Shown here in pieces: positions 25,301 to 47,508 of a stretch of DNA of 47,508 nt. Where the stretch lies: assembly GCF_913063425.1 (NCBI RefSeq), contig NZ_CAJXYK010000048.1:1-47508 (forward strand), written 5' to 3'. Both the position numbers and the translations under genes were made by a program. Each line of letters starts with the position of its first letter. The stretch's first letter is position 1. Below the pieces are notes generated by a model. It did no database searches, was not told where the DNA came from, and saw nothing but the letters and a program-made list of their open reading frames with translations. Origin of the DNA: an uncultured Thiohalocapsa sp. Lineage in GTDB: Bacteria > Pseudomonadota > Gammaproteobacteria > Chromatiales > Chromatiaceae.

Positions 25301-25681
25301 CCCTCCCTACTGTTTGGCGAGACAGGCCGCTTCCTGGTCGCCGATCCCCTGCCGCAGGCCGAGGCCCGCGCCCGGCTCTGTGAGCTGGTGTCGCTGTACC
25401 GGCAGGGCGTGCAGCGCCCGCTGCCCATCTTCCGCAAGGCCAGCTTCGCCTTTGCGGAGCGCTGGGATGATGACGACGAAAACGCACAGAACCGCGCCCA
25501 CAGCGCGGCGATGACCGCCTGGGAGGGCAACAGCTTCAATGACATCCCCGGCGACCGCGACGATGGCTATGTCCAGCTGGTGCTCCGGGACGTGACCGGC
25601 GACCCGCTGGCCCACCCCGAGTTTGCCCGCCTGGCGCTGGCCCTCTACGGCCCCGTACTGGCGGCAGGAGCGGATGCATGA
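22355..25681 (+). CDS. recC: Exodeoxyribonuclease V, gamma subunit
   Basis: A 1108-aa protein, close to the usual RecC length. RecC is the Chi-recognising scaffold of the RecBCD helicase-nuclease, which processes double-strand ends for recombination and degrades phage DNA. The start MLTVIRSNRVEQLLAELA is typical; an upstream in-frame ATG at 22250 would overlap the peptidase gene and adds non-family sequence. Recognisable segments include VVAASPAMARWVNLRLAE, the degenerate helicase-like core (DVLVMVPDIARYAPDI), ITFCGMRPLRSLPFEVICVLGLND-type sequence, and FPRRDRPVEFDPL. The stop overlaps the recB ATG by 4 bp. The order recC-recB-recD without an intervening ptrA differs from E. coli. Confidence 0.95.
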   Translation: MLTVIRSNRVEQLLAELARQLVAAPPASVLTPATVVAASPAMARWVNLRLAEVCGVAANLDYPLPASFVWRLARGLLNDLPDTDPLTLDAMAWQVFAELPALLSEPAFAPLQRYLQGDTDGRKRWQLAARIADVFDRCQLYRPALIRAWTQGREADEPDAANAEPWQGALWRRLVADRERQQRVAVLDRLLEALAQPQAPVSLPERVAVFAVSSLPPVLVQVFQALARHSDVDVYLHTPTAEFWSDLVSQKSLARKRLLRPDEADLWEAGNPLLGSWGRQGQALQDLLLQDEAPLEDRDAYVSEWPDTLLGRIQRDLFGLTAVPVPHQRTAAVADDSVQVHLCHSPARECQVLHDSLLALFEAKPDLRPEDVLVMVPDIARYAPDIAAVFDQHPGDAGVGDAEADTGAPCIPWNLSDIAVADEHPLVRVFLRLLALPESRFTQSEVLSYLDVPELAAQFGLDDDAVARVRDWLAASNLRWGLDGAHKAGLQLPETEQNTWAQAEARLFAGYALGGSEGFAGIAPVAGVEGAGAAALGGFWRLFDCLRDAARRLAEPRSARDWQRELGRLIADFFGERDDPDGRLQRIRDAVAELAEQAADVGERLSPALVRTWLTERAGGTATERRGGRWFSGGVTFCGMRPLRSLPFEVICVLGLNDDAFPRRDRPVEFDPLRRAWRPGDPRKADEDRYLFLETLLGARRRLYLSCVGQDIRSNQPRQPSVLLRELMDHLDQYFVAAEGEQPLSQAVTRVHPLQPFSPARFAPEHRSFDADWCRVARQVQQGDAVREAPAPVDWPTEPLPAPPEAMREVTLTQLERFLVHPVKHFVQTRLGVHLFETEPEPDDEPFALDRLAGWQLKTRLVEDRLAGRAATFDRLAAEGVLPHGALGALTLEQEQQGLAGLAEDLAPYCGQTAARLALDLTCADGPAGPWRLTGQVDGLYPELGLMRWRAGKLRGEDRLRLWLAHLARWAEADANLVSEPEPSLLFGETGRFLVADPLPQAEARARLCELVSLYRQGVQRPLPIFRKASFAFAERWDDDDENAQNRAHSAAMTAWEGNSFNDIPGDRDDGYVQLVLRDVTGDPLAHPEFARLALALYGPVLAAGADA

Positions 25682-28600: not shown

Positions 28601-29454
28601 TCGGCGAGCGCATCGATGACGAGTCCGCGGCGGCGCCGACAGACCCCGCAGCAGAGGTGCACGAGGCGCCGGCGGCACCGCCCGACGACGATCCGGCGCT
28701 GCGCTTCCCTGCGGGCAGCGACGTGGGCACCTTCCTGCATCTGCTGCTGGAGCATCTCGACTTCACCGGCGACATCGCCGCCCAAACCGAGCAGCTGAGC
28801 GCCCGCCACGCCGCGCGCTTCGGGCTCGACCACCGCCGCCATGGGCCGGACACGCGTCTGCTGACGCAGCGCGCGGTGGCTACACCGCTCGACGCCGACG
28901 GCTTTCGGCTCGCGGACCTGCCGGCAGAGCGCCGCCTCAACGAGCTGGCCTTCGACCTCGCCACGGACCGCGCGGATCTCGGCGCCCTGCAGCGGCTGCT
29001 GGCCGAGCATGCGGGTCAGCCCGTGCCGGCGCTCACCGCCGCGGACTTCGCCGGCATGGTGACCGGCGTCATCGACCTGGTGTTCGAGCACGCCGGGCGC
29101 TATTACGTCGCAGACTACAAGAGCAACCTGCTCGGGTCGCGCTTCGACGACTATGCCCCGGCTGCGCTGCGCGAGGCCGTCCTCGCGCGCCGCTACGACC
29201 TGCAGTATCTGCTCTACACCCTGGCGCTGCACCGCTACCTGGCCACCCGGCTGCCGGACTATGACCCGGCGCGTCACCTGGGCGGCGTCTACTACCTCTT
29301 CCTGCGCGGCATGCGCCCGCAGACGGGGCCTGCGCGCGGTGTGTTCTTCACCCAGCCCGAGCCCGGGCTCATCCATGCCCTGGACACGCAAGTGCTGCCT
29401 TGGGGCCATGCAGTGCAGCGCGCAGCGGGCGATGCCCGGGAGGGCGCCGCATGA
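25678..29454 (+). CDS. recB: Exodeoxyribonuclease V, beta subunit (helicase-nuclease)
   Basis: A 1258-aa protein. It is the 3'-5' helicase and the only nuclease of RecBCD. The UvrD-like motor has Walker A ASAGTGKT (24-31), LVVTFTNAAT, motif II IDEFQDTDPLQW (388-399), GDPKQAIYSFRGGDIFTY, the motif V region IVTMHAAKGLQYPVVFLP and RLAYVALTRAE. The C-terminal nuclease domain has Asp1133 (GVIDLVF) and Asp1146/Lys1148 (VADYKSN), matching the catalytic residues of E. coli RecB. An N-terminal Met-Ser-Gln leader and the ATGA overlap with recC fix the start. The stop overlaps the recD start by 4 bp. Confidence 0.97.
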   Translation: MSQNALDNAAMLAFPLTGAHLIEASAGTGKTYSIANLYLRQILDGRDVGEVLVVTFTNAATDELRGRLRARLFEALSLLEHGGTSEDEFLQRLAEQLRAGPELAVAIRRLRLAVRAMDEAAVLSIHGFCQRALTEFAFNSGQGFGLEVLTDDSGLWRTAVQDWWRRTAYSLSAARAELFESAVGNLEAFRRQLKPLLANPEPKLLPAAGEVAGALARFDALLAELAEIAATWRADRNRLFKALIDSKALKRAQKTPFHLDVLAATFAELDEYLAGDPVRPPPPCFEALDATVIQAQLKKNKTDPALDDPFFTRCAEVRAALQDLRRDLRAAALADAAVFARRQVQQAKTDGGLLSYDDMLTHLREALRGEGGQALAAAVTERFPVAMIDEFQDTDPLQWGIFERLYLDGPGEGLLLIGDPKQAIYSFRGGDIFTYMAAQQRLDGEARWTLRQNWRSTPAVVQAVNAVFSRREQDAFVFGDTIGFAPSEAADKAHRWLVDGGADRSALTLWTVPPVPDKKGEPKPPSKDDATAMAHAAVADEIVRLLAGARAGSVRLVKRDADGKEHEARALQPKDIAVLVRTRHDGTRLRQVLLERGINAVSVARDSVYASDEAAALEPLLAAALDPRERRLARQALASPLLGLGYAEIGRIAADERAWADWVDRLLALHQSWQRHGFMAMFQQLLWRTGVAPADGIVAGSEAPAGIAERLAAGDDAERRLTNLLHLGELLQQAARAEAGMDALLGWFRNQRREQQTEQAGDELQLRLESDADLVQIVTMHAAKGLQYPVVFLPDLWNCKVTKTDRPLRFHRQGDAALCLDIGSDDRDAHLHLAERERLAEDVRLAYVALTRAESAVYVVWGRAGSASHGADASRAALGWLLHPHQDAAALTGEPPDAFAGLDALEPDLQALAAAANGAITLAELPQAPVAGRLPATAGSEAPAARTFSGRIDTRWRITSFSALTRDLHAVPPGLGERIDDESAAAPTDPAAEVHEAPAAPPDDDPALRFPAGSDVGTFLHLLLEHLDFTGDIAAQTEQLSARHAARFGLDHRRHGPDTRLLTQRAVATPLDADGFRLADLPAERRLNELAFDLATDRADLGALQRLLAEHAGQPVPALTAADFAGMVTGVIDLVFEHAGRYYVADYKSNLLGSRFDDYAPAALREAVLARRYDLQYLLYTLALHRYLATRLPDYDPARHLGGVYYLFLRGMRPQTGPARGVFFTQPEPGLIHALDTQVLPWGHAVQRAAGDAREGAA

Positions 29455-31382
29455 GACTGTCTCTGCATACCCTGATGGAGGCCGGCCGGCTGCCGCCGCT
29501 GGCCCATTACTTCGCGGCCTTCGTTGCCCGCGGCTGTGGGCTTGCGTCGGACGGCATCGTGGCGCTGAGCGCGGCCCTGGTGAGCGCGCGCAACCTGGAC
29601 GGCGATGTCTGTGTGGACCTGGCCGAGCATGCGCAGCGGGAGCTGTTCCCGGCGGACGTCGCCGCAGATGCACAGGGTCCGCTCGCGCCCGCGCTGGCGG
29701 ACTGGCTCGCGGCCCTAGCTGCCTGCCCCTGGGTGGGCGACCCGGGCGCGCAGGCGCCGCTGATCCTCGATGGGGAGCGGCTCTACCTGGGCAAGTACTG
29801 GCACTTCGAGGCAAGCGCGGCGGCGGCGCTGCGGGCGCGCTCGGCGCCGGTGGCGGACCTGGACCCCGAGCGGCTGGCGCAGGGGCTTGAGCGGCTCTTT
29901 CCGGCGCCGGCGGATGCGGCCGGCGCGGGCGAGCCGGACTGGCAGCGGGTCGCCGCCGCGGTCGCGGTCACCCGCCGCTTCGCGGTGATCTCCGGTGGTC
30001 CGGGTACGGGCAAGACCACCACCGTGGTCAAGGTGCTGGCGCTGCTGCTGGAGCAGGCGCCGGACCTGCGCATTGGGCTTGCGGCGCCCACCGGCAAGGC
30101 GGCAGCCCGGCTCACGGAGTCCATCGCCGGCGGCAAGCAGCGCATCGGCGCCACCGGCGGCATCGCCCCGGACCAGGTGGCGCGTATCCCGGAGCAGGCC
30201 CAGACCATCCACCGGCTCCTCGGCTACGGTGCCGACGGCCTGTTCCGTCGGGATGCGGACAACCCCCTGCCGGTGGACTGCCTGGTGGTGGACGAGGCGT
30301 CCATGATCGACCTGCCGCTCATGGCCCGGCTGCTGGCGGCACTGCCGGCATCGGCCCGGTTGGTGCTGCTCGGTGATCGCGACCAGCTCGCCTCGGTGGA
30401 GGCGGGCAATGTGCTGGGCGACATCACCGGCCGCGGCCAGCCGATCCGCTATGCGCCCGAGCAGCTCGAGCTGCTGGCGCAGGTGGGCGCCGCGCCCGCG
30501 CCGCTGCTGGCGGCGGCTGCGGGGTCTGAAGCTGCCGACCCTGTGGCCGATGGTGACAGACCCCAAGAACCAGCGCCGGCGGCGGCGGTGGCCCTGCTGC
30601 GCAGGAGCTGGCGCTTCGGCGCCGACAGCGGCATCGGCGCCCTGGCCCGGGCCGTCAACGCCGGCGACGGCGAGACGGCCCTCCGGCTGCTGGATGATGA
30701 CGGGCAGCCGGACATCGCCCGGCTGGTGCCGCCCGCGGACAGCCTGCATCCGGTGTGCATCGACTGGGCGGCGGCACGTTTCGCACCGGTGCTGAATGCC
30801 CCCGACCCGGAGACCGCGCTGGACCTCCTGGACCGTGCCCGGGTGCTGGCGGCGCTGCAGCGCGGCCCCTACGGCGTCGAGACCCTGAACGCGCGCATCG
30901 CCCAGCGCCTGCATACGCAGCCCCCGGCGGTCCCTCCGGCGAGCCCCTCGCTCGGGCAAGCCGGTGCCGTGGGTGACGGCCTCCACCATGGCATGCCGGT
31001 GATGGTCACCGCCAATGACTACGAGGTCGGCCTGTACAACGGCGACGTCGGTCTGCTCTGGCGGGATGCCGCCGGCCGCCTGCGCGCGCACTTCCGCGGC
31101 CCGGACGGCAGCCTGCGCACCCTGTCCGTGCGCCAGCTGCCGCCGCACGTCTGCGCCTATGCACTCACGGTGCACAAGAGCCAGGGCTCCGAGCTCGACG
31201 AGGTGCTGCTGGTGCTGCCGCCGGAGCCGCACCCACTGGCGAGTCGCGAGCTGCTCTACACCGCCGTGACCCGCGCCCGCCGGCAGGTGACGGTGCATGC
31301 GGGCGAGGCCGCGCTGCGCCAAGCCTGCGCCGCCCGGGTGCAGCGCAGCTCCGGCCTTGCGGAGCGGTTGGGCTGGCGGTGA
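29451..31382 (+). CDS. recD: Exodeoxyribonuclease V, alpha subunit (5'-3' helicase)
   Basis: A 643-aa superfamily 1B helicase, the faster 5'-3' motor of RecBCD. Walker A reads GGPGTGKTT at 182-190, Walker B VDEASMIDLPL, followed by LGDRDQLASVEAGNVLGDI. The C-terminal motifs include MPVMVTANDYEVGLYNGDVG and the final helicase motifs YALTVHKSQGSELDEVLLVLP and LLYTAVTRAR. A short RecD N-terminal domain (about 1-120) precedes the motor. ATG 29451 overlaps the recB stop and was chosen over an upstream frame that runs inside recB. All three subunits are present and look intact. Confidence 0.96.
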   Translation: MRLSLHTLMEAGRLPPLAHYFAAFVARGCGLASDGIVALSAALVSARNLDGDVCVDLAEHAQRELFPADVAADAQGPLAPALADWLAALAACPWVGDPGAQAPLILDGERLYLGKYWHFEASAAAALRARSAPVADLDPERLAQGLERLFPAPADAAGAGEPDWQRVAAAVAVTRRFAVISGGPGTGKTTTVVKVLALLLEQAPDLRIGLAAPTGKAAARLTESIAGGKQRIGATGGIAPDQVARIPEQAQTIHRLLGYGADGLFRRDADNPLPVDCLVVDEASMIDLPLMARLLAALPASARLVLLGDRDQLASVEAGNVLGDITGRGQPIRYAPEQLELLAQVGAAPAPLLAAAAGSEAADPVADGDRPQEPAPAAAVALLRRSWRFGADSGIGALARAVNAGDGETALRLLDDDGQPDIARLVPPADSLHPVCIDWAAARFAPVLNAPDPETALDLLDRARVLAALQRGPYGVETLNARIAQRLHTQPPAVPPASPSLGQAGAVGDGLHHGMPVMVTANDYEVGLYNGDVGLLWRDAAGRLRAHFRGPDGSLRTLSVRQLPPHVCAYALTVHKSQGSELDEVLLVLPPEPHPLASRELLYTAVTRARRQVTVHAGEAALRQACAARVQRSSGLAERLGWR

Positions 31383-33272: not shown

Positions 33273-33719
33273 TCAGATCTCCAGCAGCGAGGCCATTGCC
33301 TCGTAGAAGGCGTCCAGCCACTGCTCCTGATGCGTGTACGACGCCACGTGTGGTCGCCCGCCGAGCGTCTCCCGCGCCACGACGTAGCTCAGGGTGCCGT
33401 CGTCCAGCTCCTCCACCTCGAAGCGTTTGTGCCCGCCCGGCACATGCAGACGCACGCCGCAGGGCTGCGCCGGATCGCCGGTGAAGGCCTCCACCAGCAC
33501 CCGCGCTTGATCGTCGCGGGCATGGAAGTCCTCCGGCCAGATCTGCCGCAGCACCGTCACCTTCACCAGCTCGCCTTCCACGTCCTTCAGCGCCGCGAAC
33601 AGCGGCGCCGCCGCCTGCGCCCGCCGCCGAACCGACTCGGCCCGCCGCTCCGCCGCCGTCTGCCTGGTGGCAACGGCGGCCTCTTTGCGTGCCTTGATGC
33701 GTTGCAGGGTGTCGCTCAT
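33273..33719 (-). CDS. Hypothetical protein, 148 aa
   Basis: The start MSDTLQRIKARKEAAVATRQT at 33719 is preceded by GAGGAC about 10 bp upstream. The N-terminal third is a basic, Arg/Ala-rich helix (about residues 6-45), and the rest looks globular: GELVKVTVLRQIWPEDF, VRLHVPGGHKRFEVEELDDGTLSYVV and HQEQWLDAFYEAMASLLEI. I do not recognise the family. Its codon use matches the chromosome and it has no disabling change, unlike its neighbours. It might be part of the lost methylase cluster or unrelated. Confidence 0.6.
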   Translation of the reverse strand: MSDTLQRIKARKEAAVATRQTAAERRAESVRRRAQAAAPLFAALKDVEGELVKVTVLRQIWPEDFHARDDQARVLVEAFTGDPAQPCGVRLHVPGGHKRFEVEELDDGTLSYVVARETLGGRPHVASYTHQEQWLDAFYEAMASLLEI

Positions 33720-33926
33720 GGCTCTTTCGTCCTCCTGTGGGGCGCGTGATGCGGAGTGATGCTCGCCCGCCGTGTCGGAATCCGCTCGCTGCCTGTGCCG
33801 ACCGGGCTTAGGCCGCCGGCGGCACGGCGCTCCGGCACCGCGTCGCAGAGTCCCTTCGTCGGGGGGGCAACGCCGACGAACGGCACGTATATCGTAATCG
33901 AACCGTGGGCAGCACGGCGGGCTTTC

Positions 33927-34085
33927 CGCTGGCAAAAGGCGCGCTTCATGCCGACGCTCCGGCATTCTTTCCAGGAAGGGGAAGCCAGCGAGGCGAGCTG
34001 TACTTGTTCTGCGTCGTGGCCCCCGCGGCACCCGCCTTACAGGACCGGCGCGCGCACCCGCAGTGGACGCCGGCTCGATTGCCGG
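33927..34085 (+). pseudogene. Degenerate scrap of a MAD6/PglW-like kinase gene
   Basis: This stretch closely matches, with indels, the segment of the large kinase gene at about 38730-38890: the DNA for RWQKARFMPT, SFQE, the PAAPALQDRR part and PQWTP are all visible, but spread over different frames. About 160 bp are recognisable. It is on the same strand as the intact gene and 4.8 kb away. It must come from a diverged paralogue, not a recent copy, because many silent sites differ. Confidence 0.75.
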
Positions 34086-36531: not shown

Positions 36532-37515
36532 TCAATGCAGCACGGTGTCCAGGTCGTCGGCGGTCAGGATGCGCCTGGACCAGCGCAGCAGCGTCTCCGC
36601 GTCCGCCGCCGCGATGCGCTGCCGCGTGGACTCGCTCGGCGGGCCGAACTTGTCCTCGATCAGGGACAGCAGCACCGCGGCTTCACCCTCTTGGCGGCCC
36701 TCTTGGCGGCCCTCTTGGCGGCCCTCCTGGCGGCCCTGTTGCCGGCCCTGCTCGATGTAGCGGTCGATGAAGGTCTGCATGATCGGCTCTCCGGTGAATG
36801 TCTCCCGCAACAGGGCGCGGATCTCTTGCTCCTCGACCCGTTGCGTGCCCTGAACATAGTAGCGCAGCAGGGATTCCAGGATCGCCACCGCCGTGTTGCG
36901 GTCCTGCACCTGCTCGATCAGCGTCAGGAGCTCGCGCAGGCGCTCGAGCGGCTGGTCGCTGAAGATCCAGCGCAGGGCCAGTTGCACCAGGCGGGTGAGG
37001 ACCTCGCCCTTGATCTCCGCGTCGGTGCGCTCGGACAGGTCCATCAGGGCGTAGGTGAGCTGCGGGACGAAGGGCGCCAGGGCCGCCGGCAGTGGGTTGA
37101 CGAGCTGGTGGAAGCTGCGCGGCACCCGCCAGGGTCCCCTGCCGTGGTAGATGACCAGTGGGTAGACGGGCGGCAGATGGTCGGCCTCGGGGTGCTGCTT
37201 GCGGAAGGCGTCGCCCTCGGCCACGACATAACGCAGCAGCTGCAGGAGCGTCCAGTGCTCGGGGCTGCTCTTGTGCTCGAACAGCAGATAGATGGACAGC
37301 GGGCCGTCGCGGTGGCGCACCCGGTAGACAAGGTCGGAGTAGGCCGAGCGCAGATCGGCGGCGACGTAGGTGTCCTTGGCGATGTCGAGGCTGGCCAGGT
37401 CGATCTCGGCGAGCAGCCCGGGCGGGAGCTGGCAGCGCAGGAAATCCACGGCGACCTCGCGCCGGCCGAAGCTCTCGCGGAAGAAGGCGTCGTGGGGGGT
37501 GGCGATCTCGTCCAT
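36532..37515 (-). CDS. Rpn-family (PD-(D/E)XK) recombination-promoting nuclease
   Basis: A 327-aa protein of the Rpn/YhgA-like family, once called putative transposase. Known members are DNA endonucleases that raise RecA-independent recombination, and recent work links some to phage defense. It starts MDEIATPHDAFFRESFGRREVA at 37515 (upstream codons are proline-rich noise). The nuclease core is at about 40-110, including AYSDLVYRVRHRDGPLSIYLLFEHKSSPE with the Asp and Glu-x-Lys residues. Residues about 255-275 are repeated RQEG units, and the C-terminus is a short helical domain (FGPPSESTRQRIAAADAETLLRWSRRILTADDLDTVL). It is transcribed away from the kinase operon. Confidence 0.88.
   Translation of the reverse strand: MDEIATPHDAFFRESFGRREVAVDFLRCQLPPGLLAEIDLASLDIAKDTYVAADLRSAYSDLVYRVRHRDGPLSIYLLFEHKSSPEHWTLLQLLRYVVAEGDAFRKQHPEADHLPPVYPLVIYHGRGPWRVPRSFHQLVNPLPAALAPFVPQLTYALMDLSERTDAEIKGEVLTRLVQLALRWIFSDQPLERLRELLTLIEQVQDRNTAVAILESLLRYYVQGTQRVEEQEIRALLRETFTGEPIMQTFIDRYIEQGRQQGRQEGRQEGRQEGRQEGEAAVLLSLIEDKFGPPSESTRQRIAAADAETLLRWSRRILTADDLDTVLH
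36686..36745 (-). repeat. 12-bp tandem repeat, 5 units, in the Rpn gene
   Basis: Five 12-bp units (ccctcttggcgg; the last two differ at one or two positions) encode the Arg-Gln-Glu-Gly tetrapeptide repeat. Such repeats are a known site of length variation in Rpn genes. Confidence 0.85.
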
Positions 37516-38012
37516 GGGAGGCGAGCCTAGCGTCGCTACGTGTACAGGGCAACCCGATTGCGCGCGGATGCGGCGGCCAGCAGCGGCACCGGCGGCGGCA
37601 GGGCTCCTGGCGGTGCTGCTGCTCTCTTGCCGAGGCCCTGCCTCGGCATCCCGGTTCGGCGGCGCTGCCGCCCGGGGCGGACACTGGCGACAGAGTCGCA
37701 GACCGCGGTCCAGGTCTGGATTGGGCGGGTCGGTTGGATCAGGCGGGTCAGCGGCAACGCAATTCGGCAATCAGCGCTTCACGCGCGCGCAGCTTTGATC
37801 ATCAGTCCAACCATGCCGCGGCCGATCCGCAGCGCCGACCATTCAACAGCGAAGCCCTCGCTCCCACTCGCCCGAAGCGCCAACTGCAACGGCCTCGGGA
37901 GCACCTTGCGGCCCCGAACATACCGCTCGTCCGGGATCGACGCCGACCGTCAGTTTCGCTATCGTGCCCGAAACGTGCTCTGTCTGGGGCCATCCAGACC
38001 AAGGGATCGAAC
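37516..38012. other. Upstream region of the kinase operon
   Basis: No gene is supported in this 497-bp divergent region. Frames open through it are shadows with low-complexity composition. It should carry the promoter of the defense operon; a stem-rich GC content masks any clear -35/-10 element. Confidence 0.4.
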
Positions 38013-41000
38013 ATGATGGTGCGCCATATCCCCTGTGGAGACTTCGTCAACGAGAGCGAGCGCCGGGCGGTCGAGCAGCTGAAGGCCAAGCTCCAGGCCG
38101 CGCGCGGGCCCTGGGTGCTGCTGTCGAACCTGAGCCACGCCCAGCACACCGCCCGTCGCGCGGACGAGATCGACATCGTCGCCATCGGGCCGCCCGGAGT
38201 CTGTGCCGTCGAAGTCAAGCACTGGGATGCCGGATACCTGAAGCGGCACGGTGCCGTCGTGGACGCCGAGGCGGACCGCATCGACGGCAAGGCCAAGCGC
38301 GTTGCCGGTGCCTTGCGGCCCCGGCTCGACCCGGGCTTCGTCTCCGGCAGGCTGCTGCTGACCAGGAGCAACGTCCGTTTCGGTGACGAGCGCCGCCCGC
38401 GCCCGCGTGGTGTGGGGGTGTTTGGTCTCCCGGAATGGAAGACGCTGCTGGATGTGGATGGTCCTGTGCGCCTGAGCGCGGACCAGATCGAGCTGGCCGC
38501 GCAGCTGCTGGAGCCGCGCACCAAGGTTGCGCTGCGCGGCGACCTGCGCGCCTTTGCCGGGCTGATCAACCTGGAGCGCCTGTCGGACCGCGCCGACGCC
38601 TTCCACCGCATCTACCGCGGTCAGCATCCGACCCGGCGTGACAGGGTCATCCTGCATCTCTACGACCTCTCCGCCAGTGATGCGGACAATGCCCTGGAAC
38701 TGGCCCGTCGCGAGCTCGACACCATCCAGCGCTGGCAGAAGGCGCGCTTCATGCCGACACTGCTGGATTCTTTCCAGGAGGCGGAAGGCTACCCCGGCGA
38801 GCTGCATTTCTTCTCACTGGTGGACCCGGCCGCGCCGGCCTTGCAGGATCGCCGTGATGACCCTCAGTGGACACCGGGCGCAAGGCTGGATTTTGCCCGG
38901 GCGGCCATCGACGCGCTCGCCGAGCTGCACCAGCCGGAGCCGGGCAGCGACGCCGCCCCGACCCTGCATCGGCAGATCACGCCGCGCAGCCTGCGGGTGC
39001 GGCACAACAACCAGCCGCTGTTCACGGAGCTGAACCTGAGCCGGCTCGGCGATGCCGTCACCTTGGCGCCGGCCGCCACGGATTTCGGCGAGCTTGCCGA
39101 GTATTACGCGCCGGAGGTCCGCCAGGGCGGTCTCGCCGTCGCTGACCCTCGCTCGGATGTCTTCAGCCTGTGCGCCTCCCTGCGCGTCCTGTTCGACGGC
39201 GAGGATGCCGTCTCCCGTGCGGCCGACGCCGCCTTGGCCGCCGGCTGTGCCGCCGCGCCGGAGCAGCGCGTGCCGCTCGCCGACATCGCCAAGGCCCTCG
39301 CCGCAGTCGGTAGCATGGACGCCGCCGAGCCCACGGTCACCAACTCGCTCCCCGCCGCCGAGTTCTGGGATGAAGACACCGTGGTCCCCTTCCAGCAGTC
39401 CCAGTTCAAGGTCATCGGCCGTCTCGGCGGCGGTGGTGTCGGGCAGACCTTCAAGGTCGTGGAGCTGGACACGGATTCCGAGGAGCGCTTCGGCACCTAT
39501 GTCGCCAAGCTCATCAACCACGAGGACGACGCCAGGGCCGTCATCCGGGCCTACAGGCTCGCCCGCGCCCAGACGGACCATCCGAATCTCTCGGTGATCC
39601 ATGAGATCGCCGCGGAGTGGCAGGCGGACCGCTTCGTGGCTTTACTCAAGTGGGTCGAGGGCATCCCGCTGTCCGACCTGACCGGTGTGCTCCCCATCCA
39701 TGCCGAGGACATCGGTGAAGACTCGGCGGAAGCCCTCGCGCTGCATTGGCTCAAGGAGCTTTGCGACGCCCTGGGCCAACTGCACCGCGCTGGGCTGGTG
39801 CACGGCGATGTCAGCCCGCGCAACGTCATCGTGCAGGGCGGCAGCACCACCCTCACCGACTACGACACCGTGCTCCGCAGCGGCGACACGCCGAGCCGCA
39901 GCACCGCCGTCTATGCGAGCCCCGCGGTGCAGGAGCGCGTGCGCATTGAGCCCGCGGACGACCTCTACGCCCTTGCCGCCACGCTGTTCCACGTGTTGAC
40001 GGACCGCGAGCCCTTCCTGCACGGCGCCGAGCGGCGCAAAGACCTTGGACTGTGTTGGGACGGCATCGACGGCTTGGCGCAACTGCGCCCCTTCCTGGAC
40101 CGTGCGACGCATCCGGACCCGACGGCACGCTTCCGCGACGGTGCAGAGGCGCGTGCGTTCCTGAGCGAGCTGACGCAGGCGCCGGACGCCGCCGCGCCCG
40201 CCGATGACGCCGAGCGCATCACGCTGAGCGACAACGTCGTGCCCTGGCTGCAGGAGGTGCTGAGCACCTACCCCGGCGCCCGTCGCGGCAATGCCGAGAC
40301 CCGCGGCCTGGACTCCGACTTCGCGCTGCAAACCTATGTCGAGACCCCGCTCGACAGCATCCTGCTGGAGGACCTCCGGGCCGGGCGGGTGAACCTGGTC
40401 ATCCTGTTCGGCAACGCCGGCGACGGCAAAACGGCGTTCCTGCAGCACCTGGTGCGCAAGCTGGGCGTTGAAGACATCCAGTCGTCCCGACGCGTCTGGG
40501 AGACCGATTTGGGCAATGGCCGCCGGCTCATGGTGAATCTCGACGGCGCCGCCGCCTGGCAGGGGCGGGACGCGAACGAGCTGCTGGACGACCTGTTCGC
40601 GCCCTTCCACCGGCGCGATTTCCCCACCGACCGGGTGCACGTGGTCGCCGTCAACAACGGCAAGCTGCTGGAATGGGTCGAGACCCAGCCGCAGGACACC
40701 TGGCTCACGGCGGCGTTGCGGGACCTGCTGCTGTTCGACAAGCCGCCGGCCGAGCCCCGCTTCCGGCTCATCGACCTGAACCGCCGCTCCCTGGTCGGCG
40801 GGCTCGTCAAAGATGCACCGGAACCGCGGGCGGATTTCCTCAACGCACTCATCGACCGCCTACTCGGCGGCGATACTGATCCCTGGCGGCCTTGTGCTGC
40901 CTGCACGGCCCAAGACCGTTGCACCGCCTTCGCGTCGGTGCGGCTGCTGCGCGACCCCGAGCAAGGCGCACGCCTGCGCGCGCGGCTCACCGACCTGCTT

Positions 41001-41897
41001 CAGGCCTGCCACCAGCGCGGCGAGATTCACATCACCGCCCGCGAGCTGCGCGCCGCCTTGTCCTACTGCCTGTTCGGCATCGACCACTGCGAGGACCTGC
41101 ATGCGGCGCCGGACGCGCGCCCGGAACCGCTCTGGCATCGCCTGTTCGATGCCGCCTCCGAGCGGCGCCAGGGCGAATTGCTGGCCGAGATGGCCCGATT
41201 CGACCCGGCGCTGGAGTCCGATCCCATCATCGACCGGGGCCTGCTGCGGACCGTCGCATCGGACGCCGGCGGCCATCGGCTCGCCGATGCGCGCCGGCGT
41301 GCCTGGCTGCTCGGCGACGGTGCCAACGGCCGGGTGCGGCTGATGCACGGGCAGCACATCGCACGCTTCCGCGCCGTGCCCGCCATGTCAGCCGGCGAGC
41401 TGGACGCCTTGCTGCGCGACCTCTGCCTCGGCATCGCCCGGCTCGAAGACCTGCCGCCCAAGGCCTTCGCGCCCGCGCAGGTCGACCATGGCGTCCCGCT
41501 GCGTATCACGCCCCGCACGCCGACGGAAAGCGCCTTCTGGGTGGTGAAGCCCTGGGACCGGTTCAGCCTGAGCCCGGCGCTGCCGGCCGCCGCCGACGGC
41601 CTGGAGCGGCTGCACACCCATCTGCACCTGACCTACCGCTACGCGACGGGCGATGCAGAGACCCTGATCCTGGGTCTGGAGCTGTTCCACCTGCTGCTGG
41701 AGCTCAGGGCGGGGATGCAGCTCTCCGGCGTCGGCGAGGAGGGCATCTTCGCCAACCTGGAGATTTTCACCCAGCGCCTGGCCAGCGAGGATGCGCGTCT
41801 GCTGCATGCCTGGCATCCCAGCGACGAGGACCGGCTCTATCGGGTGCGTGTGGAGGCCCGCGACGGCCGGCAGGTGTTGCTGCGGGAGCCGCTGTGA
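38013..41897 (+). CDS. NERD-pseudokinase-kinase-NTPase, MAD6/PglW-like
   Basis: A 1294-aa protein (ATG 38013 with AAGGGA upstream; a second ATG follows at once). The N-terminal NERD nuclease-like domain (about 10-110) has ADEIDIVAIG and VCAVEVKHW. A first kinase-like domain (about 185-445) is degenerate: HRQITPRSL (His319) lacks the catalytic Asp, ELN replaces DFG, but YYAPE and the SDVFS segment remain. A second kinase domain (about 465-735) looks active: LGGGGVGQ loop (471-478), Lys499, HGDVSPRN (Asp599, Asn604) and DYD (616-618). Next comes GNAETRGLDSDFALQTY and a P-loop NTPase with GNAGDGKT (800-807), ending in a long helical domain. The family call (MADS kinase MAD6, also similar to BREX type 2 PglW) is from memory of these motifs and the order of the next genes. 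Confidence 0.82.
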   Translation: MMVRHIPCGDFVNESERRAVEQLKAKLQAARGPWVLLSNLSHAQHTARRADEIDIVAIGPPGVCAVEVKHWDAGYLKRHGAVVDAEADRIDGKAKRVAGALRPRLDPGFVSGRLLLTRSNVRFGDERRPRPRGVGVFGLPEWKTLLDVDGPVRLSADQIELAAQLLEPRTKVALRGDLRAFAGLINLERLSDRADAFHRIYRGQHPTRRDRVILHLYDLSASDADNALELARRELDTIQRWQKARFMPTLLDSFQEAEGYPGELHFFSLVDPAAPALQDRRDDPQWTPGARLDFARAAIDALAELHQPEPGSDAAPTLHRQITPRSLRVRHNNQPLFTELNLSRLGDAVTLAPAATDFGELAEYYAPEVRQGGLAVADPRSDVFSLCASLRVLFDGEDAVSRAADAALAAGCAAAPEQRVPLADIAKALAAVGSMDAAEPTVTNSLPAAEFWDEDTVVPFQQSQFKVIGRLGGGGVGQTFKVVELDTDSEERFGTYVAKLINHEDDARAVIRAYRLARAQTDHPNLSVIHEIAAEWQADRFVALLKWVEGIPLSDLTGVLPIHAEDIGEDSAEALALHWLKELCDALGQLHRAGLVHGDVSPRNVIVQGGSTTLTDYDTVLRSGDTPSRSTAVYASPAVQERVRIEPADDLYALAATLFHVLTDREPFLHGAERRKDLGLCWDGIDGLAQLRPFLDRATHPDPTARFRDGAEARAFLSELTQAPDAAAPADDAERITLSDNVVPWLQEVLSTYPGARRGNAETRGLDSDFALQTYVETPLDSILLEDLRAGRVNLVILFGNAGDGKTAFLQHLVRKLGVEDIQSSRRVWETDLGNGRRLMVNLDGAAAWQGRDANELLDDLFAPFHRRDFPTDRVHVVAVNNGKLLEWVETQPQDTWLTAALRDLLLFDKPPAEPRFRLIDLNRRSLVGGLVKDAPEPRADFLNALIDRLLGGDTDPWRPCAACTAQDRCTAFASVRLLRDPEQGARLRARLTDLLQACHQRGEIHITARELRAALSYCLFGIDHCEDLHAAPDARPEPLWHRLFDAASERRQGELLAEMARFDPALESDPIIDRGLLRTVASDAGGHRLADARRRAWLLGDGANGRVRLMHGQHIARFRAVPAMSAGELDALLRDLCLGIARLEDLPPKAFAPAQVDHGVPLRITPRTPTESAFWVVKPWDRFSLSPALPAAADGLERLHTHLHLTYRYATGDAETLILGLELFHLLLELRAGMQLSGVGEEGIFANLEIFTQRLASEDARLLHAWHPSDEDRLYRVRVEARDGRQVLLREPL

Positions 41898-41944
41898 GCG
41901 CAGGATGCTGTGATGAGCAAGTCGCGTTGACACGAGGCGAGACC

Positions 41945-42184
41945 ATGCAAGCCATCGAGTTCGAAACCCACGTGAGCCACGGCAGCGTCAGCCTTCCTGC
42001 GGATGCACAGGTGGCAGACGGCCAGCAGGTGCGTGTGGTCATCCTGTTCGAACGTGCCGAACAGGCCAAGGTGTCCGCTGCCGCGGAAAAGGCACAAACC
42101 GGCCCCATCGCCCGCCTGATGCAGAACCCGCTGCTGGTACCCGGTTTCGCGCCCCTGTCTCGGGACGAGGCCCATGCGCGGTGA
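41945..42184 (+). CDS. Antitoxin of a PIN-domain module
   Basis: A 79-aa protein starting MQAIEFETHVSHGSVSLPADAQ, a beta-rich N-terminus as in SpoVT/AbrB-like or DUF2281-like antitoxins (QVRVVILFE), followed by a flexible, toxin-wrapping tail (PIARLMQNPLLVPGFAPLSRDEAHAR). It overlaps the toxin gene by 11 bp and starts 47 bp after the kinase stop. It would bind and inhibit the PIN toxin and autoregulate the pair. The exact antitoxin family is uncertain. Confidence 0.75.
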   Translation: MQAIEFETHVSHGSVSLPADAQVADGQQVRVVILFERAEQAKVSAAAEKAQTGPIARLMQNPLLVPGFAPLSRDEAHAR

Positions 42185-42608
42185 TGTCTTCGTCGATACC
42201 AATGTCTGGCTCTATGCGCTCGTCCTCGAACCGGGCGAAGAGGCCAAGCACGATTGTGCAAAGCAGCTCATCGCCGGCCTGGGCAGGTGCACCGTCAGTA
42301 CGCAGGTCATCGCGGAGGTCAGCGTCAACCTGCTGAAGAAGGCCGGCATGCGGGAGCCCGACCTGATCGAGATCGTCGAGGACTTCTACGCCAGCCATCG
42401 GGTGCAGGATACGGGCCTGGGTTGCCACCGACGGGCCAGCGATCTGCGCAGCCGATTCGCCCTCAGCTTCTGGGACAGCCTTGTCCTGGCGGCTGCCCGC
42501 GAGGCCGGTTGCTCCGTGTTCTACAGCGAGGATATGCAGCACGGCCTGCAGATCGACGATCGTCTGCGCATCGTCAATCCATTCGCACCGGCAGAGCCGA
42601 CAGGCTGA
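42174..42608 (+). CDS. PIN-domain (VapC-like) toxin ribonuclease
   Basis: A 144-aa PIN-domain protein. The Mg2+-binding acids appear as Asp8 (FVDTNVWLYAL), Glu near residue 47 (VIAEVSVNLL), Asp near residue 101 (LSFWDSLVLAAA) and Glu/Asp in SEDMQHGL, the full set of a catalytic PIN nuclease. It is predicted to cut RNA, often initiator tRNA, when free of its antitoxin. It starts inside the antitoxin gene (11-bp overlap) and ends 62 bp before the next large gene. The frame is intact. Its place inside a defense operon suggests either a recent insertion or a backup that kills cells when the operon is blocked. Confidence 0.88.
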   Translation: MRGDVFVDTNVWLYALVLEPGEEAKHDCAKQLIAGLGRCTVSTQVIAEVSVNLLKKAGMREPDLIEIVEDFYASHRVQDTGLGCHRRASDLRSRFALSFWDSLVLAAAREAGCSVFYSEDMQHGLQIDDRLRIVNPFAPAEPTG

Positions 42609-42670
42609 CCGTTCAGGATTGCCGCGGAAGCACCATCGGGGAACCGAGCGCACGGTCGGACAAGGAACGC

Positions 42671-44905
42671 ATGGCGAATCAAGACCCCCCAATCGTCCGC
42701 GAATTCAAAGCCTTCGGCATGCGCCACATCTGCGAGCAGCTCGCCGCGGCGGAGGGCCGGTTCGTCGACAAGGCCGCCGCCTACGATGCGGTCGTCGCGA
42801 GCTTCAAGGCGGATTACGGCTGGCCGGCGGACCTGACGGAGCTGGAGCGCACCGTCGGCGGCAAGCTGCGCGAGGTCTACATCAACCGCCTGCACTGGAT
42901 GACGGCGCGGCTCTGTCGCGAGGGCGTCATCGAGTCCGTCGCGAGCCGCCCGTTCATTGCACTCGCGGGTCATCTGGCCGCGGCAGAGGCGGCTTACGGG
43001 AGCAAGGCGCAGAAGCGGCGTCGGGGTCGGCCAAAAGCCTCAACACCCGACGGCGCACGCATCCAGTCCTCTGTCCGCCCGCCGCCTTCCGATCACGACA
43101 GACTACCCACAGCGACCATGTCAACGCGTCCAGCCAAGAAGATCGTCGAGGATGTCCTGGGGCCCGCTCGTACGCGAGCGCTCTGGACCGCGAACTACTA
43201 TCCCGCGCTGCCTTTTACGCCTCAGGACTTTGAAGTCGGCGCTGTGCTCCCCGCAATGCTCTACATGGCGCGGTTCGGGCATCGGCGCGGCAAGGGGCGG
43301 TTTGCAGAGACCTTCGGCGAAAGCCAAATTGAGGGAAAAGGCCCGCCGACCATTGCCAGCATCGCCCGCGTGCTTGCTGCCAACGATGAGGCTGGTCTTG
43401 AAGGCTTCGATGATGAAGTCGGCCAAATCATGCTGGGTGATCTTCTGCTCTCCTGGTGCCTGGAGAACAAGAAGCACGAAGAAGGCCAAGATCGGCAGGT
43501 TCAGCGCGTGCTGCCGACTCACTACTTATCCAGTTGGGTCGATCTGCCGGATAAGGTAGGTAATTTGCGCGCAATCCCGGAATTGCTAACTGCTATCCTT
43601 GCCGCCCAATCGGGCGAAGAGTGGCTGCAGCCCAACGCGGACGACGAGTTTCCGGCGGGTGTCGATGACCACTCAAGAAGCCCCCTACTTGCGTTGTTCA
43701 GTCGTCATTGCGAGATACGTGGCGCCCACGCAGCCGACTACGCATCTGACTATTTCTCCGAATCGACGGCGATTGACATTGGTATCGACGAGTTGTTGGC
43801 GGTGCGCGTCGCCCGAGCGTGTGGTCACGCCCCTGACAAAGCGCGTGGCGACAGCGGCATTGTAAATCGTATCCCTCTCGCAAGTCGGGCATCTGCCCAG
43901 ACCCGCGAGGATCTTGCCGTGTTAATCCGAAAGCTTGGACCGGTCGTTCCCCGCCAAGCCTTCCTGCAAATGCTTGAAGCGGGAATTGGCTTGAGTATCC
44001 TCAACTTGACTCTCTCCACGGCTGGCATACTTATTGATTGGGAAAAGACGGGGCATTTGGCAGTAAATGATACTCAGGTCGCTTGGCCGCTCTTCGTCGA
44101 TGCGTCGCAAGGGCAAGACCCTACGCTGCGAGAATTCTCCGAGGCATCGCTGAGCGAATGTCTACGGCGATTCGAGCGGGTTCCGATCATTATGATGCTG
44201 CTGCGACTTCTGGACGACCGAGTTCGGACTGATCGGCGTCTGGCCGATCAGGTGCCGCCAATCGTACCTGATCCGCGTGACTTTCTAGACCTGCTCGGCA
44301 AGGTTTACAAGGAGCAGCACGCCCGTTCCGAGGCAATTCTTGATAAGGTGTTCGAAGAAGCGCGCCGGCTCGCCGAAGAGATTGACGAAGAGGACCCAGA
44401 GATTGCTAAGCGCTTGCGGCAGGGATCGCCGTGGGACATGGCGGAGTCCATTTGCGAGTTGATGGGCCGAAAGCTGCAGATGACCCAGTTTTTGAGAAGC
44501 ATGGAAAGCATGCTAATGACGGACAAGCCGAACGGCCTCGCCGTACGTCGCCGAGTCAGCAGAACCATCGACGGCCGACGCCGCTCGATCGACGTCCGCT
44601 CGGTCGTCCTGTCTTCGGCAGTACTCGATTTCCTGGTCCACCGGCACCTTTATGAGTCTCCCGATGCAACAGCGCCGCGGGCGCTGTCGTTTCAGCAATT
44701 TCTCGCCCTGCTGCGCGAAGAGTATGGGCTGTATGTGGACCGCGAGCCGCCGGGGCAGGCCATCCCGAGCGACCTGCTGCGGCAGAACAAGGCCTGGCTG
44801 GAACGGCGACTGCGGGACCTGGGACTGCTGATCGGCGTTAACGACGCCGAATCCATGAAGCAGTTGCGCCCCCGGTACCAAGGAGGCGTCGCGCATGTTG
44901 ACTGA
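42671..44905 (+). CDS. Large unknown protein, MAD7-like
   Basis: A 744-aa protein with AAGGA just upstream of ATG 42671. I recognise no known domain. Residues 1-120 (REFKAFGMRHICEQLAAAEG, VYINRLHWMTARLCREG) look like a compact helical domain and end in a basic linker KRRRGRPK. Residues 150-744 are mainly helical, with LWTANYYPALPFTPQDFE, GDLLLSWCLENKKHEE, RRLAEEIDEEDPEIAKRL and RSVVLSSAVLDFLVHRHLY. From about 43120 to 44600 the DNA is clearly less GC-rich than its flanks. By place between the kinase and the giant ATPase-like gene it corresponds to mad7 of MADS; that is inference. An internal ATG at 43118 could begin the second part but lacks a ribosome site. Confidence 0.65.
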   Translation: MANQDPPIVREFKAFGMRHICEQLAAAEGRFVDKAAAYDAVVASFKADYGWPADLTELERTVGGKLREVYINRLHWMTARLCREGVIESVASRPFIALAGHLAAAEAAYGSKAQKRRRGRPKASTPDGARIQSSVRPPPSDHDRLPTATMSTRPAKKIVEDVLGPARTRALWTANYYPALPFTPQDFEVGAVLPAMLYMARFGHRRGKGRFAETFGESQIEGKGPPTIASIARVLAANDEAGLEGFDDEVGQIMLGDLLLSWCLENKKHEEGQDRQVQRVLPTHYLSSWVDLPDKVGNLRAIPELLTAILAAQSGEEWLQPNADDEFPAGVDDHSRSPLLALFSRHCEIRGAHAADYASDYFSESTAIDIGIDELLAVRVARACGHAPDKARGDSGIVNRIPLASRASAQTREDLAVLIRKLGPVVPRQAFLQMLEAGIGLSILNLTLSTAGILIDWEKTGHLAVNDTQVAWPLFVDASQGQDPTLREFSEASLSECLRRFERVPIIMMLLRLLDDRVRTDRRLADQVPPIVPDPRDFLDLLGKVYKEQHARSEAILDKVFEEARRLAEEIDEEDPEIAKRLRQGSPWDMAESICELMGRKLQMTQFLRSMESMLMTDKPNGLAVRRRVSRTIDGRRRSIDVRSVVLSSAVLDFLVHRHLYESPDATAPRALSFQQFLALLREEYGLYVDREPPGQAIPSDLLRQNKAWLERRLRDLGLLIGVNDAESMKQLRPRYQGGVAHVD

Positions 44906-47508
44906 GGGTGTTCGCGATGTGCTGCGCGCGACCTTTCGCGGGCTCCTGGGACCGGCGCAGCCGGGGACCATGGCCTTCGTGCGCTGCCTGCCGGAGCGGG
45001 TGGTGCACGCATTGGCCGCCGACGCCGGATTTCACCTGGACGGCTGGCAGATCGCGGCGGTCACCAGCGACCACGACCCGCAGGGCCGGCGCATCACCGC
45101 CGGACAGGCGGTGGAGTGGCGGGAGGACAAGGCCGATCCGGCGCTGCTGCTCGTGGACCCTCAGGGCGCCGGACCGGGCATGGACGGCATCTACAGCGCG
45201 GCGCGGGAGATCGGCGAGTCAGAGCTGTTTCGGCAAGCCGTCGAGCTTGCCCGCCAGCGGCTGCCACATGGACGCAAGGGCTTTGCGCTGAAGGCGCTGC
45301 AGAAGGCCGGTTGGCAGAAGCGCCGGCGTCCGCTGGCGCCGTGGTCCGCGCTGGACTACCTATGCCGCGCCTGGGACGACGATGCCGCGCTCGGCGGCGC
45401 CTTGTGGAGCATCGGGTTGTGGCCCGTCGCCGTCGAGGGCAGCCCGGATGATGCCGACCTCGAGCACAGCGCGCTGCTGGTGGAGCGATTGCTGCCGGTT
45501 CACGGTTCCCGTACACCGCCCGAGCAACGGGTCGAGGGCTTAAGTCTCGACGATGACCAGCAGGAACGGGCGGAGCTGTTGGTGCAGACCCTGCGCCGCA
45601 TGGAGGGCGCGCCGCGCCTGGATGCGCTCGGAGCCATCGGCGCAGAGCCTGAGCTCTGGCTGAATCGATTGCGGCCGGGCATCTTCGATCAGCGCCGCCT
45701 GCAGGGCATCGACATCCGCTCCTGGCGCCAGCGAAACGGCAAGCCCTACGCCTGGTCCGGACTGTCAACGACCACCGAGGGCGATCTGGAGCTGCGCCTG
45801 CCGTTACCCGACGCCGACGGGGCCGGATCGGCCAAGCTGGATGTACGCTGGACGGTGCAGCCGGAGATGCTGCCGGCTGGTGCGGCGAGCTACCAGGTCA
45901 CCGTCCATGCGGGCGGGGATGTCCTCGCGGAGCGGACCCTGGATCACAAGGGTCGCCGCGAACAGAAGGTGATCTTCAGCCAGGACGACTTCGACGAGCT
46001 GGACGAGGACGCCCGGTTTCAGGCCCAGGTGCGCGTCGCGGCCCTCGGCGACGACTGTGAGCCGGCGGAGAGCGAGGTCTTCGTGCTCTGCTTCGGCGAG
46101 CCTGCCGCAGGGCCGACCACCAGCAGCGCGGGCAGGACGGCGCCGAGCTTGGCGCTCGCCGCGGCGCAGGTCGCGGACGACTGGGAGAGCTTCAAGCATC
46201 TGGGCAAGAACCCGCAGGACCCGAGCCTGTTCGAGACCGACAAGAAGGGCTTCGTCCTCTGCAAGCACAAGGATCGCGTGGCGAAGGTCTTCTCGCCGCC
46301 CCTGTTCCGTAATCTCTGCAACGACTGGATCGAGCGCGAGGGGGCGGTCGGGCGCTGGCGGCTGCGCGTGCGCGAGGACGGCAAGCCCGTCGGCACGCCG
46401 GAGTTCGTCCCGCTGGCCGGCGTCGATGCTTCCGGGCAGCTCGCGCGGGCGTCGGCTGACTTCGCGGCCTGGCTGAGCCCGACCCAGGGGCCGCTCGGCG
46501 TGCTGTATCTGGTGGACGAGGTCAAGCCCGTCGATCGCTATGTGAGCGCTGCCGGCAAGCTCTGGGAGCAGGCAGACCCAGCCGCGACCCTGATCCAGAC
46601 CCTGGAGGTGCAGTCCCTGTCCGGCGCCTGCCTCGGGCTGATCGTGCTGCCCACCCATCCGTTGCGGGTGGCCTGGCAGCAGGGCTTCGATTTGATGGTT
46701 GCCTACCATCGGTATCGGGGAGACAACGCCGGCAAGCTGAACGCCAGGCGTCTCGCGGAGGTGCTGCGGCCGGTGAACGGCGCCCACTATCCGGCCTTTC
46801 TGCCCGGCCTGACGCCGGAGCAGACCTTCGTCTTCGGCGACACCCTCGGCCTGCACGCGGTGGCCATGGTGACCGCCGATGACCCTGAGCCCAAGGCGAC
46901 GCTGGCGCTGCTTGGCCGGCTGCTGGGCGGTGACGAGGCAACGGCGCCGTCGGTGGGCGAAGGCGCCGCCGATGCGTTGGCCGGCGAGCTGGGGCGCTAC
47001 CTGCAACTGCATCCCCTCTATCGACGCATCCGGGTGCATGCGCTGCGTGCGGGTGATGCGCGGCCGGTGGCCCGCGCGCTGGGCCGCGCTCAGAACCTGG
47101 CGACCGACGCCGCGGACGGCGACGACAGCGAAGATCTGCACAGCTTCGAGCTGGAACTGTTCCCCGGCAGCGGACGGTCCACCGCCCAGAGCGGGCGCTT
47201 TCTCGCCGCCACCGCGGAGCGCCGGCGCAGCGGTGCCGGCGCCGTGCCGGAGGAGGATCGCTGGCTGTTGCAGAGCGTCACGCGGCCCGGCGGCGTCACC
47301 CTGCCACGGCTGCGGTGGGCACGCCGCGATGCCCACAAGCCGGACACGCCGGCGCACGTGGCAATTGCCTTCGATGTGTTTACGTCGCGGGTCGAGACGC
47401 GCCCCGCCGCTGAGCTGCCCCCGGACGGCACCCTGGAGGCGCACGGGCTGATGCTGGTGCCGTCGCGGGACTTCCACGCCGGGGGTACCCCGCATTGGCT
47501 CTCGTTCG
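44895..47508 (+). CDS. Very large protein, MAD8-like, cut by window end
   Basis: Starts MLTEGVRDVLRATFRGLLGP at ATG 44895, overlapping the previous stop by 11 bp, and runs open for 871 codons to the edge with no stop. An AGGAGG ribosome site lies 7-12 bp upstream of the ATG. The visible part has an N-terminal region (AFVRCLPERVVHALAADAGF, a possible DNA-processing or RecD-like fold), a beta-sandwich section (ELRLPLPDADGAG ... LDVRWTVQPEML) and a helical region containing LSGACLGLIVLPTHPLRVAWQQGFDLMVAYHRYR. This last pattern is found in very large DndH/HerA-FtsK-like proteins, whose ATPase domain comes later and would lie beyond the window. It corresponds by order to mad8. The ATPase itself is not visible here. 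Confidence 0.68.
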   Translation, partial: MLTEGVRDVLRATFRGLLGPAQPGTMAFVRCLPERVVHALAADAGFHLDGWQIAAVTSDHDPQGRRITAGQAVEWREDKADPALLLVDPQGAGPGMDGIYSAAREIGESELFRQAVELARQRLPHGRKGFALKALQKAGWQKRRRPLAPWSALDYLCRAWDDDAALGGALWSIGLWPVAVEGSPDDADLEHSALLVERLLPVHGSRTPPEQRVEGLSLDDDQQERAELLVQTLRRMEGAPRLDALGAIGAEPELWLNRLRPGIFDQRRLQGIDIRSWRQRNGKPYAWSGLSTTTEGDLELRLPLPDADGAGSAKLDVRWTVQPEMLPAGAASYQVTVHAGGDVLAERTLDHKGRREQKVIFSQDDFDELDEDARFQAQVRVAALGDDCEPAESEVFVLCFGEPAAGPTTSSAGRTAPSLALAAAQVADDWESFKHLGKNPQDPSLFETDKKGFVLCKHKDRVAKVFSPPLFRNLCNDWIEREGAVGRWRLRVREDGKPVGTPEFVPLAGVDASGQLARASADFAAWLSPTQGPLGVLYLVDEVKPVDRYVSAAGKLWEQADPAATLIQTLEVQSLSGACLGLIVLPTHPLRVAWQQGFDLMVAYHRYRGDNAGKLNARRLAEVLRPVNGAHYPAFLPGLTPEQTFVFGDTLGLHAVAMVTADDPEPKATLALLGRLLGGDEATAPSVGEGAADALAGELGRYLQLHPLYRRIRVHALRAGDARPVARALGRAQNLATDAADGDDSEDLHSFELELFPGSGRSTAQSGRFLAATAERRRSGAGAVPEEDRWLLQSVTRPGGVTLPRLRWARRDAHKPDTPAHVAIAFDVFTSRVETRPAAELPPDGTLEAHGLMLVPSRDFHAGGTPHWLSF

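Follow-up and report, generated by a model that had tools for sequence, protein, structure and literature searches.

Three plus-strand genes at the right end of a contig from an uncultured Thiohalocapsa sp. (NZ_CAJXYK010000048.1 of assembly GCF_913063425.1, here C48) follow the order of mad6, mad7 and mad8 of the Methylation-Associated Defense System (MADS). The contig is 47508 bases long; its whole length is called the window here, and the genes are called F, G and H. The locus raises the question of whether such a trio is part of a MADS locus, the effector half of a system that borrows its methylase, or a restriction system in its own right; a preliminary description had left it as partial, rearranged or a new variant. 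We find that the trio is a real, open and recurrent variant on the border of MADS and stand-alone DndFGH. With a probability of about 0.55, we read it as a stand-alone, kinase-gated restriction machine of three subunits, a sister of the MADS effector trio that uses another motor and lies within the wider DndFGH class.

The F-G-H operon and its continuation on a second contig

The window is one of 117 contigs of a 5.9 Mb genome, and its right edge is a contig end, not a gene boundary. F (38013..41897, 1294 aa), G (42671..44905, 744 aa) and H (44895..47508, the first 871 of 1674 aa) are all open reading frames (ORFs) on the plus strand. G and H overlap by 11 bases, in line with the overlapping or closely spaced run first reported, but F and G are split by a 773-base slot. 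The remainder of H was traced to contig C69 by searching the host genome with the H protein of Lamprocystis. When reversed, C69 shares an exact 77-base overlap with the end of C48, and H reads across the join as 1674 aa with no stop. The join is backed by a genome of the same genus (G153), where remnants of F, a VapB/VapC pair, G and H lie in order on one contig, followed by the flanking DNA that C69 also carries. A PD-(D/E)XK nuclease motif (approximately residues 1088-1112) and the HerA Walker A motif (residue 1360) of H are both on C69. The giant protein thus has the DndH/HerA-like part ascribed to it, but that part lies beyond the window.

F is predicted to combine a NERD nuclease, a pseudokinase, a Ser/Thr kinase and a DndF-type P-loop NTPase. 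The NERD domain (38052..38243, residues 14-77; Pfam PF08378, 32.5 bits against a cut-off of 22.1) has a D-x(n)-E-x-K pattern (DEID...EVKHWD) that is invariant in all seven rows of our alignment A3. The kinase domain (39408..40034, residues 466-674; PF00069, 51.4 bits against 31.7) carries the glycine loop, HGDVSPRN and DYD motifs, while the pseudokinase is named from its position and the published architecture. The region from 40230 to 41894 has the features of a DndF core, namely Walker A (GNAGDGKT), NLDG, a Walker B with Asn (AVNNGK) and a CxxC..C insert. The P-loop region of F also matches SspF (3e-21, 73.5 bits, profile positions 35-275 of 600).

All 12 F proteins of this type keep Walker A, DYD and the Walker B with Asn; 11 have the zinc pattern and nine the strand-2 pattern. 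By regular expression, HGDV..N was found in 9/12, with L026 reading HGDVTPAN and L025 cut by its contig. The NERD pattern was likewise found in 9/12; L048 has AEID for DEID, L025 is cut and L026 has lost most of the NERD domain while retaining its kinase motifs.

G is most similar to MAD7, with a profile-profile E-value of 2e-14. Its similarity to DndG is weak (87 columns near the end, E 8e-4, probability 25), and SspG was matched at 14.5 bits over the last 61 profile positions. An extra N-terminal region of approximately 155 aa (42671..43135), shared by 2 of 10 aligned G proteins, resembles Mrr_N below threshold. The G profile found no match among solved structures.

H looks chimeric in profile comparisons, with a MAD8-like body and a motor nearer to DndH, which the preliminary description had missed. 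We compared profiles built from 10 window-type, 6 MADS and 9 Dnd H proteins, leaving out L015 (cut within the motor), L097 (incomplete), L100 (no match to our Walker pattern), L089, L090 and L094 (H not recovered whole) and three Ssp proteins. The window-type body aligned with the MAD8 body over 1134 columns (E 3e-48) and with the DndH body over 333 columns (E 0.003), whereas the HerA motor aligned with that of DndH over 323 columns (E 3e-19) and with that of MAD8 over 140 columns (5e-6). The motor claim rests on these comparisons because a tree of HerA motors with three groups cannot settle kinship, each group alone being one side of a branch. The order of parts is that of DndH, a restriction endonuclease (REase) followed by HerA/FtsK with a Gln sensor and an Arg finger. 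The D-x-E-x-K pattern of the REase is present in 11/11 H proteins, and HerA Walker B with the Arg-finger/Gln sensor in all 10 that extend that far. The methylase motif [SDN]PP[FYW] is absent from 11/11, in which the adenine-methylase domain itself was not identified. H also has a weak match to SspH.

Kinship with MADS and stand-alone DndFGH

Judged by profile similarity, MAD6, MAD7 and MAD8 have their homologues in F, G and the H body, although these fall far below the cut-offs of the NCBIfam equivalogs (NF047741 for MAD6, 460 bits; NF047733 for MAD7, 410; NF047742 for MAD8, 175). F was nearest to MAD6 (161.5 bits) and G to MAD7 (97.1 bits), as expected from the order first proposed, but both scores are below cut-off. 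The MAD8 model matched neither the 871-aa part of H in the window nor the whole H proteins of L014 and L016, and PglW gave no match to F up to an E-value of 1. As a positive control, we used a MADS locus of the same genus (L028, genome G155), which passed all three models (774.6, 609.5 and 207.5 bits); its upstream genes include one matching mad5 (117 bits) and a methylase that fits the PADLOC type II methylase model (850 bits) better than mad2 (302 bits). By these curated models the window trio fails MADS membership, unlike L028; mad2 and mad5 are also annotated upstream in L105-L107. The mad6-mad7-mad8 order nonetheless stands, with the G and H comparisons joined by an alignment of F residues 291-1289 with the MADS kinase from another genome of the genus at 28% identity.

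A tree of 32 F cores (12 window-type, 4 MADS, 12 Dnd and 3 Ssp loci and L101) recovered the window-type cores as one clade (support 100/99) and the four MADS loci as another (100/99). A further split (100/99) separates both groups and L101 from Dnd and Ssp, although the program flagged a meeting of long branches between the Dnd/Ssp and window-type rows. L101 (G048:C39), which groups with MADS (91/89), is a 620-aa ORF for an F core, a length that leaves no room for NERD and kinase domains. The recurrence of F-G in 12 loci that form a clade of their own, separate from MADS, speaks against a partial MADS, and a new variant is the best supported of the options first listed.

The trio and MADS share their gene order, a NERD-kinase-DndF-core protein, a MAD7-like protein, a MAD8-like body with a nuclease and F cores on one side of the tree. 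They differ in that the trio scores below the MADS cut-offs, has no mad1-5 among the scanned neighbours, carries a HerA motor only weakly like that of MAD8 and forms a separate clade on a long stem. Much of what the trio shares with DndFGH is already known from the available text of PMC10853773, which describes DndF fusions to NERD and to inactive and active kinases in tandem, DndFGH loci that lack a modification module, and the capture by DndH of HerA from six clades. The same text gives the Asn Walker B, the strand-2 motif and, in some members, the zinc insert as traits of DndF, DndG as a triple winged helix and DndH as an N-terminal multidomain body with an inactive adenine-methylase domain lacking [SDN]PP[FYW], then REase and HerA (PMC10853773). 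The window trio has the same P-loop core, Asn Walker B, zinc insert and REase-HerA arrangement, but its H body is barely DndH-like and its G weakly DndG-like; in most of the canonical DndFGH loci retrieved from the order, F is preceded by a PAPS-reductase-like gene, judging by eye from the ORF starts.

With SspFGH, the trio shares the SspF P-loop core and the weak SspG and SspH matches, but SspF and SspG were matched over part of their profiles and Ssp lies on a separate branch. The NERD-kinase grammar also occurs in PglW of type 2 bacteriophage exclusion (BREX), one large protein with NERD followed by kinase domains according to the available text of PMC12839542. A relative, L038, matches PglW weakly (45 bits against a cut-off of 990), but the window F does not, and there is no pglX or pglZ among the scanned neighbours. 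The main text of PMC10853773 uses neither 'MADS' nor 'antitoxin', and 'MADS' is absent from the available text of PMC12839542. We found no published description of this lineage or of its F-G cassettes; the supplements of PMC10853773 may already list members of the clade.

The window-type trio is rare. F-G was found in 12 loci, and in 11 of these H is present at least in its first part; the members include Lamprocystis, Paraburkholderia and two Rhizobium plasmids, the latter being the only matches in 72,556 plasmid records. Among the named records that encode H relatives are those of Thiohalocapsa, Lamprocystis and Thiodictyon. The G profile matched 3/369 genomes of the class and 2/398 of the phylum, the host genome being counted in both, and, within one family, 5/39 genomes, in which some of the loci are broken or partial. 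The window G alone matched 9/210 genomes of the order at 1e-5, MADS and remnants included. None of 340 class genomes passed the MAD7 cut-off; the three weaker matches are of the window type, one of them in the host genome.

We scanned six ORFs upstream of the trio and six on C69, a part of the ORFs of the window and C69, and found neither mad1-5 nor a methylase among them. The expectation that mad1-5 do not lie upstream was thus borne out, and the downstream check proposed with it was equally negative: the six C69 ORFs had no PADLOC match, and their Pfam families were TPR, PKD, beta-helix or none. A partial MADS produced by assembly breakage was considered and ruled out by the 77-base overlap, these C69 ORFs and the single-contig flank after the H remnant in G153. 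Just upstream of F are an AAA_16 gene (by Pfam scan) and, on the minus strand, the unrelated Rpn/YhgA-like gene already noted (36532-37770, 155 bits). A decayed fragment of a second F gene (33927-34073, plus strand, 78% to 38730-38877) lies 4 kb upstream of the intact F. ORFs at 33273-34031 and 18026-19282 had no Pfam match and no PADLOC match, respectively. Further upstream are recC, recB-like and recD genes (22250-31382), 6.6 kb from F; recC also adjoins F in L048 (L048:3-2735), possibly by chance. Elsewhere in the host genome, the right end of contig C59 (G000:C59) has two short HerA-like pieces, 34% and 40% identical to the Lamprocystis H motor and one of them at the contig end, which suggests another HerA-type gene.

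The slot between F and G

The 773-base slot holds a further pair of genes that the preliminary description had missed (41945-42608, plus strand). A VapB-like antitoxin ORF of 79 aa (41945..42184) is overlapped by an ORF of 144 aa with a VapC-like PIN domain (42174..42608; PF01850, 55.4 bits). The antitoxin ORF matched no Pfam family above cut-off, its one match being to a RelN antitoxin below threshold. A small ORF overlapping a PIN-domain ORF is the arrangement of type II VapBC, but here the pair separates the first two genes of a defence operon, and its antitoxin lacks an above-cut-off family.

A large F-G insert was found in 3 of the 13 clade loci with both ends visible (the window, L014 and L024). 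In the other ten (L015, L016, L025, L026, L037, L038 and L048-L051), F and G overlap or are at most 59 bases apart. Two more loci, L018 and L053, show the G side only; both carry toxin-antitoxin-type genes, and G is broken in L053. The contents of the slot differ. L024 has UPF0175 with DUF3368 plus Unstab_antitox, L032 (on the same contig as L014) has DUF433 with DUF5615 plus an Unstab_antitox-like ORF, and L053 has a PIN gene. The slot of L018 holds DUF433-like and Unstab_antitox-like ORFs, a shortened DUF5615-like end and an HNH gene; ORFs of L018 and L032 that were not themselves scanned are labelled by their likeness to scanned ones. We take DUF3368 and DUF5615 to be PIN-like folds.

As a control, we checked 16 Dnd/Ssp loci of the order and found no F-G gap above 21 bases, taking ORF starts as listed. 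Among six MADS loci with the junction visible (L028, L097, L098, L105, L106 and L107), one has an insert: in L097 (G149:C384), an ORF that by eye is GIY-YIG-like lies between mad6 and mad7 amid repeated, palindromic-looking sequence. At the G-H junction, none of 14 readable clade loci has an insert; 13 overlap, and the annotated H start of L038 is 162 bases past G. The tree places its three insert-bearing loci together in a single subclade (95/92); the slot may thus have opened on one occasion, with later changes of content. The pattern was spotted post hoc, and we attach no probability to it.

The corresponding locus of G153 (L027) is decayed. Its F lacks residues 676-832, Walker A included, and other stretches; G is kept at the N-terminus only; and H keeps residues 1384-1674 with one stop. 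VapB (79/79 residues) and VapC (137/144 aligned) have no stop. At 8965-11460 of L027 (G153:C4:70001-90000), parts of the F end and of the G N-terminal region are present in duplicate beside the unbroken VapB and VapC. Between the two genomes, the ratio of nonsynonymous to synonymous divergence (dN/dS) is 0.29 for VapB, 0.25 for VapC, 0.05-0.21 for pieces of F, 0.07 for H, 0.21 for the flank and 0.20 and 0.43 for pieces of G. Because the ratio is low throughout, the decay looks recent, and it does not show selection on VapBC during the decay of F. Synonymous divergence (dS) is 1.03 for VapB and 0.79 for VapC, compared with 0.50-0.80 for F, 0.43 for H, 0.49 for the flank and 0.62 and 0.86 for G. 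The values for VapB and VapC, both short genes, are above those of most pieces and perhaps reflect allele replacement.

Methylases and the proposed kinase-gated mechanism

Several observations weigh against our reading. The locus of the same-genus genome G153 is broken, and AlphaFold models of G (5 sequences, pLDDT 39.6) and the N-terminal part of H (4 sequences, pLDDT 42.9) were too poor for a fold test. The motor of L014 scored about equally with PADLOC mad8 (64 bits) and DndH (63 bits), while that of L016 favours DndH (81 bits against 50 for mad8). The earlier suggestion of a variant without its own methylase holds for the scanned neighbours in the window, but two relatives have co-directional methylases: in L050 an N6 methylase gene that precedes F by 20 bases, and in L038 two N6/N4 methylases 0.25 kb past H. 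There is also a type I methylase on the other strand in L016 and a type ISP enzyme approximately 6 kb off in L037. With methylases near L050 and L038 and restriction-modification genes within approximately 6 kb in L016 and L037, independence of methylation is not general, and the trio may be an effector core to which a methylase is coupled in some cases. Action in trans is also conceivable in the host itself, where other contigs encode HsdM-like methylases (best score with the mad2 model, 203 bits). Finally, the available text of PMC10853773 proposes the fused kinase and NERD as back-up suicide effectors and not as a gate.

These points frame the alternatives. In a MADS-like system whose effector half is the trio and whose methylase is borrowed from next door or elsewhere in the genome, self DNA would still be marked by methylation; the methylases near four relatives, those on other host contigs and the methylase found within 4 kb upstream of mad6 in four MADS loci (L028, L105, L106 and L107) are in keeping with this. 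We nevertheless think it improbable, as the neighbouring methylases differ in family and arrangement, as expected in defence islands, the window has none among its scanned neighbours, and L098 and L099 of the MADS clade have none in the six upstream ORFs scanned. The mad2 match in the host genome is uninformative because the model matches all 14 control genomes. Slightly less doubtful, though still unlikely in our view, is the proposal that the kinase and NERD of F serve as suicide effectors should the H nuclease be blocked (PMC10853773). The NERD domain, mostly lost in L026, seems dispensable, as a back-up would be, and the kinase motifs are kept; however, retention of the kinase in L026 and its presence in MADS fit a core role better. 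Least probable of all is a partial or decaying MADS or DndFGH that does not work in this host. The second F fragment, the G153 locus in pieces and an H fragment with four stops in Thiohalocapsa ML1 speak for decay, but in this genome all five ORFs (F, the two small ones, G and H) are open and the catalytic motifs preserved, in an architecture common to distant relatives.

For the slot cassettes the case is evenly balanced between a role in the system and mere parasitism between F and G. PIN domains are common in the host genome (37 matches in G000), the slot accepts varied cassettes, as the GIY-YIG-like ORF of the G149 MADS locus and the HNH gene of L018 indicate, and most clade loci have no insert. 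Against parasitism, the cassettes seen are co-directional with the operon, the identified toxins are PIN-type (PF01850 twice, DUF3368 and DUF5615, the last two presumably), 14 loci have no cassette between G and H, and VapB and VapC read through in G153 though F, G and H are broken.

Returning to the stand-alone machine, its most likely role is methylation-independent, kinase-gated restriction of invading DNA, an activity we infer from the domains and from published proposals. F, G and H would form a complex in which G reads DNA and H pumps it with its DndH-like HerA motor and cuts it with the PD-(D/E)XK nuclease, which would protect the host from phage. F would be the switch, its nucleotide-binding DndF core sensing infection or assembly and its kinase setting the threshold, and the NERD nuclease may be a second, dispensable weapon. 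With no dedicated methylase alongside, self would be spared by the complex staying off until triggered, not by marking of host DNA. The PIN toxin-antitoxin pair may stabilize the operon or serve as a last-resort RNA-cleaving arm. A bolder and rather doubtful version is that the lineage represents restriction freed from modification, built from MAD6/7/8-type sensing and cutting parts with a DndH-type motor, under the control of phosphorylation in place of methylation, and with an exchangeable PIN RNase toxin-antitoxin cassette for abortive infection between the genes of sensor and reader. In a Bacteroides MADS locus (L106, NZ_OY725936.1), mad8 is directly followed by a PP2C phosphatase gene and a Fic gene, perhaps as counterpart to the MAD6 kinase.

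For stand-alone DndFGH, it is an open question how invading DNA is told from self when no methylase accompanies the nuclease machine. The clade offers three-gene cassettes for tests of kinase gating, some of them in named strains (Paraburkholderia phenazinium LMG 2247 and the two Rhizobium plasmids). It also links MADS and DndFGH, as a MAD8-like body seems to carry the motor of another HerA branch, and from this mismatch the choice of motor may determine the kind of invader that is met. Should the PIN cassettes prove functional, they would be interchangeable suicide arms inside a restriction operon.

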